NCBI RefSeq assembly: GCF_003977755.1
Contig: NZ_RQWN01000003.1
Location: forward strand, 620,001 to 684,000
Length of the DNA: 64,000 bases
Direction: 5' to 3'
From: Haloterrigena salifodinae
GTDB taxonomy: Archaea; Halobacteriota; Halobacteria; Halobacteriales; Natrialbaceae
The notes beneath the pieces are model-generated. The model had not been told where the DNA came from, searched no databases, and saw only the letters and a list, made by a program, of their open reading frames with translations. Both the position numbers and the translations under genes were made by a program. Positions 21,833-28,927 of the stretch are shown here, one piece after another. Every line of letters begins with the position of its first letter. The stretch's first letter is position 1.

Positions 21833-24481
21833 ATGAGCGACGCGGGATACGACCACGCAACGGTCGAACGGCGCTGGCAGGAGGCGTGGGACGAGGAAGA
21901 CGCCTATCGGACGCCCGACGACGTCGAGGATCCGACGTACGTGCTGGGCATGTATCCGTACCCGTCGGGCAAACTCCACATGGGCCACGTCCGAAACTAC
22001 ACGATTACGGACGCGTACGCCCGGTTCCGACGGATGCAGGGCGACGACGTCCTCCACCCGATGGGGTGGGACGCCTTCGGCCTCCCCGCGGAGAACGCGG
22101 CCAAAGAGCGCGATACCAACCCGCGGGACTGGACATTCGACTGCATCGAGACGATGACCGAGCAGATGGAGTCGATGGGCTTTGGCTACGACTGGGAGCG
22201 GGAGATCGCCACCTGCACGCCGGAGTACTACCAGTGGAACCAGTGGCTCTTCGGGCGGTTCCTCGAGGAGGGCTTAGTCGAGCGCCGCGACGCCGAGGTC
22301 AACTGGTGTCCCCACTGCGAGACCGTTCTGGCCGACGAGCAGGTCGAGGGCGAGGCCGAACTCTGCTGGCGCTGCGATACGCCGGTCGAACAGCGCGAAC
22401 TCGAGCAGTGGTTCCTGAAGATCACCGAGTACGCGGACGAACTGCTGGAATCGATCGACGACCTCGAGGGGTGGCCCAACTCGGTCCGGCAGATGCAGCG
22501 CAACTGGATCGGCCGCCAGTACGGGTCGGAAGTCGACTTCGACATTGAAGGACACGGCCCCGTCACGGCCTTCACGACCCGCATCGACACCATCCACGGC
22601 GCGACGTTCTTCGCGCTGGCGCCCGACCACCAGATCAGCGAGGCGCTCGCCGAGGAGGATGAGGACATCCGTCGGTTCATCGAGGAGGAGGCCGACCCCG
22701 ACGGCGACGAGCCGAACGGCATCGCGACCGGCCTCACGGCCACGAATCCCGTCACCGGCGAGGAGATTCCGGTCTACGTCGCGGACTTCGTCCTCTCGGA
22801 CGTCGGGACGGGCGCGCTGATGGCCGTTCCGGGCCACGACGAGCGCGACCACGTCTTCGCCGAGAAGAAGGGACTAGACATCGTCCCCGTCATCGCTCCC
22901 GAACCCGAAGAGGGCGGGGAGCCCGAAGCGCCCGACGTCGGGGAGGCGGCTTACACCGAGGACGGCGTGCTGATCAACTCCGGCGACTACTCGGGGCTGG
23001 ACAGCGAGACGGCTCGAGAGCGCCTGACCGAGGATACCGAGGGCGCCGAGGAGGCCACCCAGTACCAGCTGCGTGACTGGGGGATCTCCCGCCAGCGCTA
23101 CTGGGGAACGCCAATTCCGGTGATCCACTGCGAGGAGTGCGGTCCGGTCACGGTTCCCGAGGAGGAGCTGCCGGTCGAACTGCCGGAGTTCATCAACACG
23201 ACCGGGAATCCGTTAGACGCCGCCGAGGAGTGGAAGCAGACGACCTGTCCCGAGTGTGGCGGCCCGGCCGAACGGGAGACCGACACGATGGACACCTTCG
23301 TCGACTCCTCGTGGTACTTCCTGCGGTACGTCTCGCCGGGCCTCGAGGACGCCCCGTTCGACCTCGAGCGGGCCAACGACTGGATGCCCGTCGACCAGTA
23401 CGTCGGCGGCATCGAACACGCCGTGATGCACCTGCTGTACTCGCGGTTCTTCACCAAGGTGCTGGCCGACCACGAGGGGCTCGAGCACCGCGAGCCCTTC
23501 ACGAACCTGCTCGCCCAGGGAATGGTGCAACTCGAGGGCGAGAAGATGTCCAAGTCCAAGGGCAACGTCGTCTCGCCCCAGCGGATCGTCGAGGAGTACG
23601 GCGCGGACACGGCACGGCTGTTCATGATGCAGGCCGCCCAGCCCGAGCGCGACTTCGACTGGAGCGAAGAGGGCGTCCGATCGACCAACGCGTTCCTCGC
23701 GCGGCTGAAGGGGATGGTGGCGGACTACGTTTCCGACGAGCCCGCGGGCGACGATAACGCCGTCGCGAGTTACGTCGACAGCGAGATCGAGGCCACGATC
23801 GCGCTGGCGACCGACGAGTACGACGACCTGACGTTCAACAAGGCGCTGCGCGAGACGCAGGATCTGGTCCGAACGCTGCGCCAATACAGTGACTACGCGG
23901 AGCCCCACGCCGAGATCTACGAGCGCGGGCTGTCGGCGGTCGTCCGCCTGCTCGCGCCGGTCGCACCCCACCTCGCGGAGGAGCTGTGGAACGAACTGGG
24001 CAACGACGGCCTCGTCGCCGACGCCGCGTGGCCGACCGCCGAGGTCGACCGCGACCACGTCATGAAGCGCCGCCGACTGGTCGAGAACACCCGCGAGGAC
24101 ATCCGCGACATCGTCGAGGTCGCCGGCATCGAGGACCCGAACGCGATCGACGTCGTCGTCGCGCCCGACTGGAAGTACGACGCCCTCGAGATCGCGATCG
24201 AGAGCGACGCTGACAACCTGATCGGCGAACTCATGCAGGAGAGCCACATCCGCGAACAGGGCGACGCCGCGGCCGACTACGGCCAGGACCTGCAGGCCGA
24301 ACGCGAGGCGCTGTCGATGACCCTCTCGCCCGAGGCGGAGTACGCGGCCCTCGAGTCCGCCGCCTGGCTGATCGAACGCGAGTTCGAGGCGCCGGTAACC
24401 GTCGTTGGCGCCGACGAGGCCGACGAGGACGTGCTCGCGAACGCCGAACCCGGCCGCCCGGCGATCGAAATCGACGACTGA
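21833..24481 (+). CDS. leuS: leucyl-tRNA synthetase (bacterial type)
   Basis: An 882-residue class I synthetase charging tRNA-Leu. HMGH (HIGH motif) occurs in YPSGKLHMGHVRNYT near residue 46 and KMSKS in GEKMSKSKGNV near 575; zinc-ribbon cysteines are visible in NWCPHCETVL and LCWRCDT, and a CP1 editing domain lies between about 220 and 420. Length and motif spacing are those of the bacterial LeuRS, not the longer archaeal/eukaryal form, consistent with ancient transfer into haloarchaea. TATATAAG lies immediately before the ATG, so the promoter may overlap the start region. Confidence 0.97.
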   Translation: MSDAGYDHATVERRWQEAWDEEDAYRTPDDVEDPTYVLGMYPYPSGKLHMGHVRNYTITDAYARFRRMQGDDVLHPMGWDAFGLPAENAAKERDTNPRDWTFDCIETMTEQMESMGFGYDWEREIATCTPEYYQWNQWLFGRFLEEGLVERRDAEVNWCPHCETVLADEQVEGEAELCWRCDTPVEQRELEQWFLKITEYADELLESIDDLEGWPNSVRQMQRNWIGRQYGSEVDFDIEGHGPVTAFTTRIDTIHGATFFALAPDHQISEALAEEDEDIRRFIEEEADPDGDEPNGIATGLTATNPVTGEEIPVYVADFVLSDVGTGALMAVPGHDERDHVFAEKKGLDIVPVIAPEPEEGGEPEAPDVGEAAYTEDGVLINSGDYSGLDSETARERLTEDTEGAEEATQYQLRDWGISRQRYWGTPIPVIHCEECGPVTVPEEELPVELPEFINTTGNPLDAAEEWKQTTCPECGGPAERETDTMDTFVDSSWYFLRYVSPGLEDAPFDLERANDWMPVDQYVGGIEHAVMHLLYSRFFTKVLADHEGLEHREPFTNLLAQGMVQLEGEKMSKSKGNVVSPQRIVEEYGADTARLFMMQAAQPERDFDWSEEGVRSTNAFLARLKGMVADYVSDEPAGDDNAVASYVDSEIEATIALATDEYDDLTFNKALRETQDLVRTLRQYSDYAEPHAEIYERGLSAVVRLLAPVAPHLAEELWNELGNDGLVADAAWPTAEVDRDHVMKRRRLVENTREDIRDIVEVAGIEDPNAIDVVVAPDWKYDALEIAIESDADNLIGELMQESHIREQGDAAADYGQDLQAEREALSMTLSPEAEYAALESAAWLIEREFEAPVTVVGADEADEDVLANAEPGRPAIEIDD

Positions 24482-24937: not shown

Positions 24938-27196
24938 ATGGCATTCGAGGACTCACTCCCCGATCGGCTCAGAGAAACGTACAGTGTAAAGATCGGTTTG
25001 ATTTTCGTCACGATCGCGCTCGTGACGCTGCTCGTCTCGGGGCTCTTTTTCGCCCACGTCTCCGGAGCGGTCGGGCCGGAAGCGGAACAGCACTTCAGCG
25101 ACCGAACCGACGATCGAAGCGACGTCGCGGAGACGTGGCTCGAAACGAACGCGGAGACGACGAACGGTATAGCGGCGGACGCGACCGTCCGCGACGGCGA
25201 TACCGAGGCGATCGGCGACCGACTTGCCGACGCGCAGGCCGCCCGCGGCGATCGCGTCGCGGAAATTCACTACCTCGCCGCCGATGGCGAGGTGCTCGCG
25301 AGCAGTGACGACGCGGCGACGACCGAGAACTTCTTCGACGCTGCGGGCGTCGACGGCGAGACTAACGGGCCGACCGCGGCCCACCAGGCGCTCTCGAGCG
25401 ACGACGAGGTGCTCTCGTTCGTCGCGAGCGTCCCGGGCGAGGATCGCTACGTCGCCCTCTCGGCGCCGGTCGCCGCCTTCGCGTCGACGCTCGAGAGCGG
25501 CGACGACTACCGGACGGTCGTCACCGACGCCGACGGCGAACAGGTCGTCGGCGTCGGCGAACTGAGCGGGGACGTCGAGGTCGACGACGCGGCCGTCCTC
25601 GAGGCCGTCGGGACCGAGGCGTCGGGCGTCGTGACGGCGACTCCCGAGGGAACCGATCGGGAACTCGCTGCGACGACGGCGACGATCGACGTCGGCGAGT
25701 CGACGATGGCGGTTACGACCTACGGCGTCGCGGACGACGTCTTCGCGGCCCAGAACACCGCGACGGCCGCCATCGCGACGCTGGCGTTCATTTTCGTCAT
25801 CAACCTCGGCTTCGTCGCCATCGTCCTCGGCGGCAACCTCTCCCTGCAACTTCGCCGGCTCGCCCAGAAGGCCGAACGGATGGGCGACGGCGACCTCGAC
25901 GTCGACCTCGAGACCGATCGGATCGACGAGGTCGGCATCCTCTACGACTCCTTCGGATCGATGCGCGACGACCTCAGCACCACGCTGGCCGATCTCGAGA
26001 ACGAACGCGAACGCGCACAGGAGGCCCAGCGCCGCACCGAACAGCGCAACCGCGAACTCGAGGCGGAGGCCGAGCGCTTCGGCGAGGTGATGGCCGACTG
26101 CGCCGACGGCGATCTGCAGCGGCGCCTTGAGGCCGAGACCGACCACGAGGCGATGGTCGAGATCGCCGAGTCGTTCAACGAGATGATCGCCGACCTCGAG
26201 ACGACGGTGTCTCAGGTCAAGCGGATCTCGCGGGACGTCGCGCGGACGAGTACGGAGGTCCAGTCCAGTTCCGAGGAGATCAGCCGGGCCAGCGAGGAGG
26301 TCAGCGCCTCGGTTCAGGAGATCTCCGACGGCTCCTCGACGCAGGCCGAGGATCTGGAGATGGCGACGACGGAAGTCAAGGAGATGTCGGCGACCGTCGA
26401 GGAGGTCGCCGCCGCGACGAGTACGATCGCCGACCAGTCGACGCAGGTCGACGAGCTCGCGACCGCCGGACAGGAGGCGGCCGAGGAGACGACGGCGGAG
26501 ATGCACGTCGCCAGCGACCAGACGGAGACTGTCGCCGAGACGATCCACGAACTCGAGCAGGAGGCCGAACGGATTCAGGAGATCGTCGAGCTGATCGACG
26601 AGATCGCCGGCCAGACGAACATGCTGGCGCTGAACGCGGCGATCGAGTCGGCCCGGTCCCAGAGCGCCTCGAGCGAGGACGGCGGCTTCCAGGCCGTTGC
26701 CGACGAGGTCAAGGAACTGGCCGAGCAGACACAGACGGCAGTCGACGACGTCGAAGCCATGATCGAATCGATACAACGGCGCGCGACCGAGAGTGCGGCA
26801 CAGATCGAGGAGACCGAGGAGACGATCGGGTCGGCCACCGATCGCGTCGACTCCCTCGCGGACAACTTGGACCGGATCGCCCGGGAGATCGAGCAGGTCG
26901 CGAGCGGCGTCACGCAGATCGATCAGGCGACGAACGAGCAGTCCGAATCCGCCGAGGAGCTCGCGACGATCGTTCAGGACGTCGCCAGCGTGGCCAACGA
27001 AACGACCTCGCAGGCACAGCAGGTCGCGGCGGCCTCCGAGGAGACGACGGCGACGATCACCGACGTCTCCGCCGAGGCGACGCGGCTCGACCAGCGGGCG
27101 ACGGAGCTGGCCGACACCGTCGACGAGTTCGCCGTCTCGGAGGCGGAATCCGACTCACAGCTGCCGGCCGCCGAACACGGAGGTGAGAGCCGATGA
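24938..27196 (+). CDS. HtrII-like methyl-accepting transducer
   Basis: A 752-residue chemotaxis/phototaxis transducer closely resembling sensory rhodopsin II transducers. TM1 spans about 19-41 and TM2 about 277-299, with about 235 residues outside the membrane between them, so it resembles the long-loop HtrII type. TM2 contains INLG with Asn289, equivalent to HtrII Asn74 that contacts the receptor Tyr. HAMP domains follow (RMGDGDLDVDLET; ERFGEVMADCADGD), then a long coiled coil with QTNMLALNAAIESAR. The signalling tip has SQSASSEDG between AR and GF, three residues longer than in HtrII, and FQAVA instead of FAVVA. Its stop overlaps the opsin start (ATGA). Confidence 0.93.
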   Translation: MAFEDSLPDRLRETYSVKIGLIFVTIALVTLLVSGLFFAHVSGAVGPEAEQHFSDRTDDRSDVAETWLETNAETTNGIAADATVRDGDTEAIGDRLADAQAARGDRVAEIHYLAADGEVLASSDDAATTENFFDAAGVDGETNGPTAAHQALSSDDEVLSFVASVPGEDRYVALSAPVAAFASTLESGDDYRTVVTDADGEQVVGVGELSGDVEVDDAAVLEAVGTEASGVVTATPEGTDRELAATTATIDVGESTMAVTTYGVADDVFAAQNTATAAIATLAFIFVINLGFVAIVLGGNLSLQLRRLAQKAERMGDGDLDVDLETDRIDEVGILYDSFGSMRDDLSTTLADLENERERAQEAQRRTEQRNRELEAEAERFGEVMADCADGDLQRRLEAETDHEAMVEIAESFNEMIADLETTVSQVKRISRDVARTSTEVQSSSEEISRASEEVSASVQEISDGSSTQAEDLEMATTEVKEMSATVEEVAAATSTIADQSTQVDELATAGQEAAEETTAEMHVASDQTETVAETIHELEQEAERIQEIVELIDEIAGQTNMLALNAAIESARSQSASSEDGGFQAVADEVKELAEQTQTAVDDVEAMIESIQRRATESAAQIEETEETIGSATDRVDSLADNLDRIAREIEQVASGVTQIDQATNEQSESAEELATIVQDVASVANETTSQAQQVAAASEETTATITDVSAEATRLDQRATELADTVDEFAVSEAESDSQLPAAEHGGESR

Positions 27197-27972
27197 TTGG
27201 CGAGCTCGAGATGTACCGGTTCAGCTCCTACGTGACGGCCGTCGCGACGCTGGCGTTTCTTGGCTGGGTCGCGAAGAAACCGGCCGGGACGCGCCGGTAC
27301 TTCCTGCCGGCGCCGATCGTCTGCGGGACGCTCTCGCTCGCGTACTTCGGGATGTCGATCGAACTGCTCCGGGTGACGACGGCGAGCGGCCAGCCGCTTC
27401 CGATGAGCCGCTACATCGACTACTTCGTCGCGACGACGATCATGATCGCGGTCGCGGGGAAGGTTGCGGACGCGACCCGACGCCAGTTGGCCACGCTCGT
27501 CGCCCTGACGGTCGGTTGGATCGGCCTCAGCCTCGGCCGATACTTCCTCACTGGGACGGCAGTGCTCGCCGCGAACCTGGGTACGGCCGTCGTCCTCGGA
27601 GCGCTCCTCTACGTGATGATCTGGCCGGTGACGAAACGCTCCGGCGAGACCTCCGGTGAGCGGGTGTTGCTCTACGGCAAGCTCAGAAACTTGCTCATCC
27701 TGCTCTGGGTCGCGTACCTGGTTATCGGCGTCGTCTCCCGACAGGGGATCGGCCTGCTCGACGCCTTCGGCGGCATCTTCGCGGGCGCCTATCTCGACGT
27801 CGCCACCCGGATCGGCTTCGGACTGTTGCTTCTCCGGGGCTCCGATGCGATGGCGAACTTCATCGACGATACCGGGTCGAACGGCGGCTCGGACGAGTCC
27901 GACGGCGAAGTGACGTTCGCGGAGCCGTCCGGCGACTCCGACGCCGATCCCGATATCGAACCGGCCGACTAA
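27193..27972 (+). CDS. lysine-less sensory rhodopsin II-like opsin
   Basis: A 259-residue seven-helix type-1 opsin. The helix C signature SRYIDYFVATT keeps Arg73 and the counterion Asp76, and helix G keeps YLD (Tyr200, Asp202) and Thr205. The residue that should be the retinal-binding Lys is Arg206 (CGG, 27808-27810): the segment reads YLDVATRIGFG where SRII has YLDLVTKVGFG. Retinal-pocket positions are also altered relative to SRII: Trp to Tyr77, Pro to Leu176, Trp to Gly179; Trp172 and Tyr175 remain. It cannot form the usual Schiff base. Residues for transducer coupling (Tyr175-Thr205, Tyr200) are kept, and it is translationally coupled to an HtrII-like transducer. It probably acts as a non-canonical receptor or structural partner. 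Confidence 0.92.
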   Translation: MIGELEMYRFSSYVTAVATLAFLGWVAKKPAGTRRYFLPAPIVCGTLSLAYFGMSIELLRVTTASGQPLPMSRYIDYFVATTIMIAVAGKVADATRRQLATLVALTVGWIGLSLGRYFLTGTAVLAANLGTAVVLGALLYVMIWPVTKRSGETSGERVLLYGKLRNLLILLWVAYLVIGVVSRQGIGLLDAFGGIFAGAYLDVATRIGFGLLLLRGSDAMANFIDDTGSNGGSDESDGEVTFAEPSGDSDADPDIEPAD

Positions 27973-28108: not shown

Positions 28109-28927
28109 ATGACGGATCACAACAACAGACAGACACGACGCCGAATACGACCGCGAACTGATCCCTTTCGGTGGGACTTCGCCGACGGCTCGACCCCGAC
28201 CGCGCCACACGTCGCCTCGATGACGTGGCGCGATGGGTCGTTCGTCAACTGGCCCGTCGACGCCGACGCCCTCCGTCCGCACGTTCCCGACCAACTGACG
28301 CTCGAGACGCGAGACGGCGACGCCTGGCTCAGCGTGTTGCCGTTCGTGCTCACGAAGGTTGGAATACGCGGCGCGCCGCCGTTTACCAGAACGGCCGTCG
28401 CCGAACTCAACGTCCGGACGTACGTCCGGTACCGCGGCGACCCGGGCCTGTTCTTCTTCAGTATCGACGTCGGGAGCCCGTTGATCGCCGCGATCGTCGG
28501 CCGAACGACGCGGCTTCCGGTCTATCACGCGCACATGCGAGTCAGCGCCGACAGCGGCGACGTCCTCTTCTCGAGTACGCGGAGCCAGACCGCGGCCGGC
28601 GCGCGGCCGCGGTTTGACGAGGACGCGCCGCGGGCTCGCTTCGACGCGACGTATCGCCCCGACGGCGACGTCTTTCGTCCCGAACCGGACACGCTCGCCC
28701 ACTGGCTCGTCGAACGCCGTCGATTGTACGCCGCCGAAGACAGGGGGGTCCTGACCGGCGAAATCGCCCACGAGCGGTGGCCCCTTCGGCCCGGCGAAGT
28801 GACGATCAACGAAAACACCATGTTCGAGGTCAACGACCTGCCGGAGCCGACCGGCGATCCGGTCGTCTACTACTGCGACGAACTCCCGATGACAGGGTCG
28901 ATTCCGCGGCGACTCCGTGAGGAGTGA
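28109..28927 (+). CDS. YqjF/DUF2071 family protein
   Basis: A 272-residue protein with the DUF2071 hallmarks MTWRDGSFVNWPVDADALRP near the N-terminus, FTRTAVAELNVRTYVRYRGDPGLFFFSID in the middle, and HWLVERRRLYAAEDRGVL towards the end. The fold is related to acetoacetate decarboxylase-like beta-barrels, but no enzymatic activity is established. It starts 136 bp after the opsin, with no obvious promoter conservation, so membership in that operon is uncertain. Confidence 0.86.
   Translation: MTDHNNRQTRRRIRPRTDPFRWDFADGSTPTAPHVASMTWRDGSFVNWPVDADALRPHVPDQLTLETRDGDAWLSVLPFVLTKVGIRGAPPFTRTAVAELNVRTYVRYRGDPGLFFFSIDVGSPLIAAIVGRTTRLPVYHAHMRVSADSGDVLFSSTRSQTAAGARPRFDEDAPRARFDATYRPDGDVFRPEPDTLAHWLVERRRLYAAEDRGVLTGEIAHERWPLRPGEVTINENTMFEVNDLPEPTGDPVVYYCDELPMTGSIPRRLREE

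Follow-up and report, generated by a model that had tools for sequence, protein, structure and literature searches.

In sensory rhodopsin II (SRII), signalling begins when the Schiff base passes its proton to the counterion Asp75 (PMC5292967), and a paper by Spudich et al. (1997) cited there refers in its title to constitutive signalling on disruption of the salt bridge. The receptor offers helices F and G as the binding surface for its transducer HtrII, its residue Y199 bonds N74 of the transducer, and a hydrogen bond between T204 and Y174 has been described as functionally important (PMC3274258).

Type-1 opsins that lack the Schiff-base lysine are already known as a class, as the initial annotation of the present locus had stated. 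Becker et al. (2016, PLoS One e0156543; PMC4915679) described 48 haloarchaeal opsin-related proteins (ORPs), often encoded beside HAMP/MCP transducers. The ORPs are related to the sensory opsins, with Tyr199 universally conserved, and non-light taxis sensing was proposed for the whole class; we found no functional follow-up of this proposal in the open-access literature. In ORP group A, Arg stands at the lysine position, W76 is replaced by D, W178 by A and Y174 by L, and R72 is lost. In group B the lysine position holds Leu or a different hydrophobic residue, W178 is replaced by G and Y174 by L, and R72 is kept. Species that have ORPs but no canonical opsins lack both crtY and brp, and two ORPs other than the one analysed here showed no absorption at 480–580 nm with retinal (PMC4915679). 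The legend of the published ORP tree names Haloterrigena ('Htg'; PMC4915679), so orthologues of the protein described below may already be in that set.

The opsin–transducer locus and its orthologues

The window analysed here is the whole stretch of 64,000 nucleotides from Haloterrigena salifodinae, in which an opsin gene directly follows a transducer gene (Table 1). The opsin is a seven-helix protein whose nearest solved structures are deltarhodopsin and the SRII of Natronomonas pharaonis (NpSRII). Its reading frame begins with ATG at 27193 and ends with TAA; frame, coordinates and the ATGA overlap with the transducer all agree with the first annotation. AlphaFold models from two-sequence alignments reached a pLDDT of 43.7 for the opsin and 38.2 for the transducer N-terminus; they were unusable, and no pocket geometry is claimed.

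We searched the taxonomic family (125 genomes) together with 392 genomes sampled from the order. Close orthologues (50–100% identity) occur in 23 genomes from three genera, including six of six genomes of the genus, and the best matches outside these 23 are at most 38% identical. Haloterrigena salina belongs to the genus. The gene order leuS–htr–opsin–DUF2071 is identical in every one of the 23 carriers. The DUF2071 gene, which lies directly 3' of the opsin throughout, has no evident tie to sensing. Pairwise dN/dS between the window and 10 orthologues is 0.30–0.49 for the opsin and 0.20–0.34 for the transducer. We conclude from these comparisons that the opsin is under purifying selection and is neither an error nor a decaying gene.

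The transducer comprises TM1, an extracellular domain, TM2, HAMP and an MCP signalling domain. The two TM helices, HAMP and MCP are HtrII-type features, and the similarity to NpHtrII runs through TM2/HAMP. NpHtrII has no large extracellular domain, whereas 229–249 residues separate TM1 from TM2 in all 23 transducers of the clade; some transducers beside lysine-bearing opsins (L083, L088 and L115) do have such a domain. Homologues of the extracellular segment occur in the transducers beside His- and Thr-type ORPs (E 3e-54 to 9e-21), and a weakly similar one in the transducer beside one lysine-bearing SRII-type opsin (E 1e-7). Its dCache_1 match in the window scores 17.5 bits (E 0.003), below the curated cut-off of 45 bits; eight of the 23 orthologous transducers match dCache_1, with a best E of 3.8e-6, and a profile of the domain searched against the PDB returned KinD alone (E 0.41). 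The domain is thus probably Cache-like. The TM1–extracellular domain–TM2–HAMP–MCP layout is shared with dCache chemoreceptors and with the HtrII of Halobacterium salinarum, which responds to light and to serine. The present transducer differs in its pairing with a putatively retinal-free opsin, and its dCache_1 similarity is weak and below the cut-off.

The source genome also contains a che cluster and an archaellum-type ATPase gene (sequence reading plus a CheW search). Elsewhere in it lie three full-length paralogues of the transducer (36–37% identical). Since the genome has no second opsin, such transducers exist without one.

Table 1. Features of the locus (positions in the window) and transducer paralogues elsewhere in the source genome (contig:positions)
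Feature	Position	Strand	Evidence or remark
Lysine-less type-1 opsin (opsin-related protein, ORP), 259 aa	27193..27972	+	PF01036 61 bits, E 1.5e-16
HtrII-like transducer, 752 aa	24938..27196	+	HAMP E 4.3e-12, MCPsignal E 4.2e-32; NpHtrII match E 2.1e-27
ATGA overlap, opsin start and transducer stop	27193..27196	+	Overlapping in 23/23 orthologue pairs
leuS, conserved upstream neighbour (context, not system)	21833..24481	+	Synteny in 22/22 other carriers
DUF2071 protein, conserved downstream neighbour (context)	28109..28927	+	PF09844 E 3e-63; synteny in 22/22 other carriers
Extracellular domain, about residues 40–269, probably Cache-like	25055..25744	+	Hydropathy, 231-residue gap between TMs; weak dCache_1
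Asn289, equivalent of NpHtrII N74	25802..25804	+	Aligned to NpHtrII chain in 4gyc
HAMP domain, residues 297–347	25826..25978	+	HAMP E 4.3e-12
MCP signalling domain, residues 514–685	26477..26992	+	Profile match
Asp76, equivalent of SRII counterion D75	27418..27420	+	D in 18/23, E in 5/23
Tyr200 (NpSRII Y199, transducer bond)	27790..27792	+	Invariant; role from PMC3274258
Asp202 (NpSRII D201)	27796..27798	+	Invariant
Arg206 codon CGG at NpSRII K205 position	27808..27810	+	Alignments; Arg in 23/23 orthologues
Transducer paralogue L143	C1:1476093-1478300		Ala at Asn289 position
Transducer paralogue L144	C6:164053-166266		Ala at Asn289 position
Transducer paralogue L145	C1:1446175-1448457		Met at Asn289 position

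Schiff-base position, pocket and relay residues

Arg206 had been proposed to replace the Schiff-base lysine, and both a pairwise alignment to the solved SRII and a multiple alignment place it at that position. At least two base changes separate a lysine codon from CGG (AAG differs at two positions, AAA at three). Sequencing error, previously called unlikely, is now excluded, given Arg at 206 in every one of the 23 orthologues; in the 11 codon-aligned ones the codon is CGG, CGA or CGC. The annotated pocket changes were likewise borne out: Tyr77 for W76, Leu176 for P175 and Gly179 for W178 are invariant in the 23 sequences, as is Trp109 at the position of SRII V108, a residue that may fill the ring pocket. 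The opsin of the window has lysines at 28, 29, 90, 148 and 163, none of them at a pocket position. The clade has 56 invariant core positions, and the pocket positions are more conserved within it, marginally (p 0.047).

Against this altered pocket, the residues through which SRII works are largely kept. R73, Y175, Y200 and D202 are present and invariant in all 23 sequences. D76 and T205, annotated as kept together with them, are present in the window but vary within the clade, in which Glu takes position 76 in five sequences and position 205 is Thr in 20 and Ala in three. When six relay and active-site residues are scored (R73, D/E76, Y175, T/S205, Y200 and D/E202), this lineage keeps 5.87 on average, compared with 2.05 for group A sequences and 3.07 for those of the hydrophobic class. 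The locus shares with SRII–HtrII the fold family, the equivalents of R72, D75, Y174, T204, Y199 and D201, adjacent genes and an HtrII-like transducer with an N74 equivalent. It differs from SRII in the missing lysine, in the changes W76Y, V108W, P175L and W178G, and in a genome without brp.

Conservation within the opsin peaks in helices F and G and the FG loop. Helix F is likewise conserved in lysine-bearing SRII-type opsins, so its conservation is not specific and is supportive only. In SRII, T189 also bonds HtrII, and its equivalent here, D190, is Asp in 22 of the 23 sequences. On the transducer side, Asn289 had been described as kept. It does align with NpHtrII position 74, but it is not fixed in the clade, being Asn in eight and His in 15 of the 23 orthologues; sampled transducers of other ORP classes also have Asn or His there, but the three paralogues of the source genome, which have no opsin partner, have Ala, Ala and Met. 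Given the gene overlap in 23 of 23 genomes and the conserved interface residues, a partnership between opsin and transducer is well supported.

An acidic residue at 76 or 77 was found in all 57 sequences with Lys or Arg at the Schiff-base position, in none of the 46 with a hydrophobic or small residue there, and in three of the five His-type opsins; it lies mostly at 77 in group A and at 76 in the present lineage. This pattern suggests that Arg206 substitutes for the protonated Schiff base. A phylogenetic test for coevolution of basic 206 with acidic 76/77 on the tree was not significant, with only one to three independent changes.

Relation to published ORP groups

The lineage shares with the ORP class the missing Schiff-base lysine and the universal Tyr (Tyr200 in 23 of 23). 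Like group A it has Arg at the lysine position, but it keeps R73, D76 and Y175 and has Tyr rather than Asp at 77 and Gly rather than Ala at 179. Like group B it has Gly179 and Arg73, the R72 equivalent, but it has Arg206 and keeps Tyr175. By residue signature it fits neither published group, as judged from the alignments. The partner transducers differ as well: in group A and the hydrophobic clade they have an outside loop of 11–20 residues (where two TMs were called), in contrast to the extracellular domain of about 230 residues here.

Our searches recovered sequences with the published group A signature and many hydrophobic ORPs. In a tree of 89 opsins from which column 206 had been removed, the 76 ORP rows split from the 13 lysine rows (100/100, with a program warning about long branches there). 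The window lineage forms its own clade (97/94), and group A (100/100) and the main hydrophobic clade (98/95) each lie outside it. The data did not reject a single clade uniting both Arg lineages (AU p 0.302) and are thus compatible with either one origin of Arg or two.

Several other arrangements were observed along the way. Haloarchaeal lysine-less opsins with His (L070, L071, L100, L102 and L106), Thr (L058) or Val (L103) at the lysine position occur; the descriptions of the published groups give only Arg and hydrophobic residues there (PMC4915679). The transducers near the Thr-type and, except for L100, the His-type opsins have an extracellular domain of 216–227 residues. At L060, L062, L065 and L067, a single MCP transducer has a lysine-less opsin gene on either side, the two opsins being different, and another MCP gene lies nearby on the opposite strand. 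Plasmid records yielded only a lysine-bearing opsin, on Haloplanus rallus plasmid pMBLA003601 (L142 2917-3675), beside HalOD1-domain and response-regulator genes.

Proposed mechanism and alternative readings

The retinal-forming family brp/blh (PF15461), which the initial annotation had singled out for a check together with a second, lysine-bearing opsin, is absent from six of six genomes of the genus, the source included. The same search detects the family in 64 of the 125 genomes of the taxonomic family, so its absence is informative. Nor does the source genome hold another opsin: a PF01036 search returned the Arg206 protein alone. The two properties go together across the clade, since the ORP is the only opsin match in all 16 carriers without brp, and all seven carriers with brp have one or more additional opsin matches. 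The ORP is thus retained in genomes that lack the known retinal-forming gene. Uptake of external retinal is possible in principle, yet there is no lysine at a pocket position. Taken with the altered pocket, these features make light independence of the opsin well supported at the level of sequence. Given the lost lysine and a genome without the known pigment-making gene, the opsin probably responds to, or passes on, a signal other than light.

On the best reading, the opsin would be a retinal-independent receptor or modulator subunit of the chemotaxis transducer. With moderate confidence, we regard the ORP as a former SRII-type receptor that would have lost retinal binding and remained bound to a dedicated taxis transducer. 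Of the earlier proposal of a light-independent receptor or structural partner, which in substance is the ORP hypothesis of 2016, light independence and the partnership stand, and the sequence favours neither role decisively. We thus propose a putative model in which the opsin and the transducer would form an SRII–HtrII-like complex. In the resting state, Arg206 would stand where SRII has its protonated Schiff base, and its pairing with Asp76/Asp202 would hold that state. A stimulus other than light, such as a ligand or a membrane or ionic state, would act on the opsin and alter the Arg–Asp pair, and TM2 of the transducer would be moved through the kept Thr205–Tyr175 and Tyr200–Asn/His289 contacts. 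This signal would come on top of whatever the transducer receives through its extracellular domain, and the output would reach CheA/CheW and the archaellum. It is the kept internal relay that argues for a stimulus of the opsin's own; a ligand site in the ring pocket is doubtful, because Trp109 may fill it. A bolder version, which we hold only tentatively, is that of a third retinal-free lineage in which a fixed Arg–Asp/Glu ion pair would stand in for both the protonated Schiff base and its counterion. A non-light stimulus would drive the otherwise intact SRII relay, and combined with a chemical signal taken up by the extracellular domain of the transducer this would amount to a dual-input, GPCR-like chemoreceptor derived from a rhodopsin.

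The alternative that survives best is that the opsin acts as a structural partner only, stabilising or assembling the transducer or setting its baseline, and that the transducer senses a chemical through its Cache-like domain. This is possible, if somewhat doubtful. The sensor-like domain of about 231 residues, with its weak dCache_1 similarity, and the opsin-less paralogues both argue for an opsin that is mere support, and a pocket possibly filled by Trp109 fits the same role. A precedent for chemical input is the HtrII of Halobacterium salinarum, which is also a serine chemoreceptor (PMC3274258). However, the lineage has kept not the interface alone but also the internal T205–Y175 and R73–D76 relay. 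In groups A and B, with partner loops of only 11–20 residues, the opsin is the likelier input. Because the transducer of the present lineage carries a putative sensor domain, a structural or dual-input role is more plausible here than in those groups.

That the opsin is an unusual photoreceptor, sensing light through non-covalently bound retinal, an apocarotenoid or a carotenoid, is improbable. The SRII relay core is kept, and according to work cited in PMC4915679, bacteriorhodopsin and bovine rhodopsin without the lysine function at reduced efficiency with aminated retinylidene compounds. Against this stand the absence of brp/blh from genome and genus, the loss of W76, W178 and Pro175 in all 23 sequences, the change of V108 to Trp, and the two other ORPs that did not absorb with retinal. 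Still less credible is the chance survival of a phototaxis system in decay: the missing retinal synthesis gene would fit it, but the open frame, fixed overlap and synteny across 23 genomes, the dN/dS well below 1, the invariant core positions and the retention in 16 genomes with neither brp nor another opsin all oppose it. A pseudogene reading was rejected given the conserved frame, overlap and synteny and the low dN/dS. A Schiff base at another lysine, leaving the protein a retinal protein still, is the least probable reading: nothing was found in its favour, and the only one conserved in the clade (23 of 23), K163, lies in the GKLRN motif at the start of helix F, outside the pocket.

In summary, what goes beyond the published ORP hypothesis is a distinct lineage with an intact relay, a transducer with an extracellular domain, and the match between brp and a second opsin across 23 genomes. 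Preferring a retinal-independent receptor or modulator subunit, we note that this lineage suits testing: the opsin is the sole one of its genome, the genome lacks the known retinal-forming gene, and almost all SRII relay residues are kept. Arg206 can be mutated together with Asp76, which opens the lineage to test. Among animal GPCRs, the light-sensing opsins are one branch among many. If microbial rhodopsins receive non-light signals too, their family would parallel that of the animal GPCRs.
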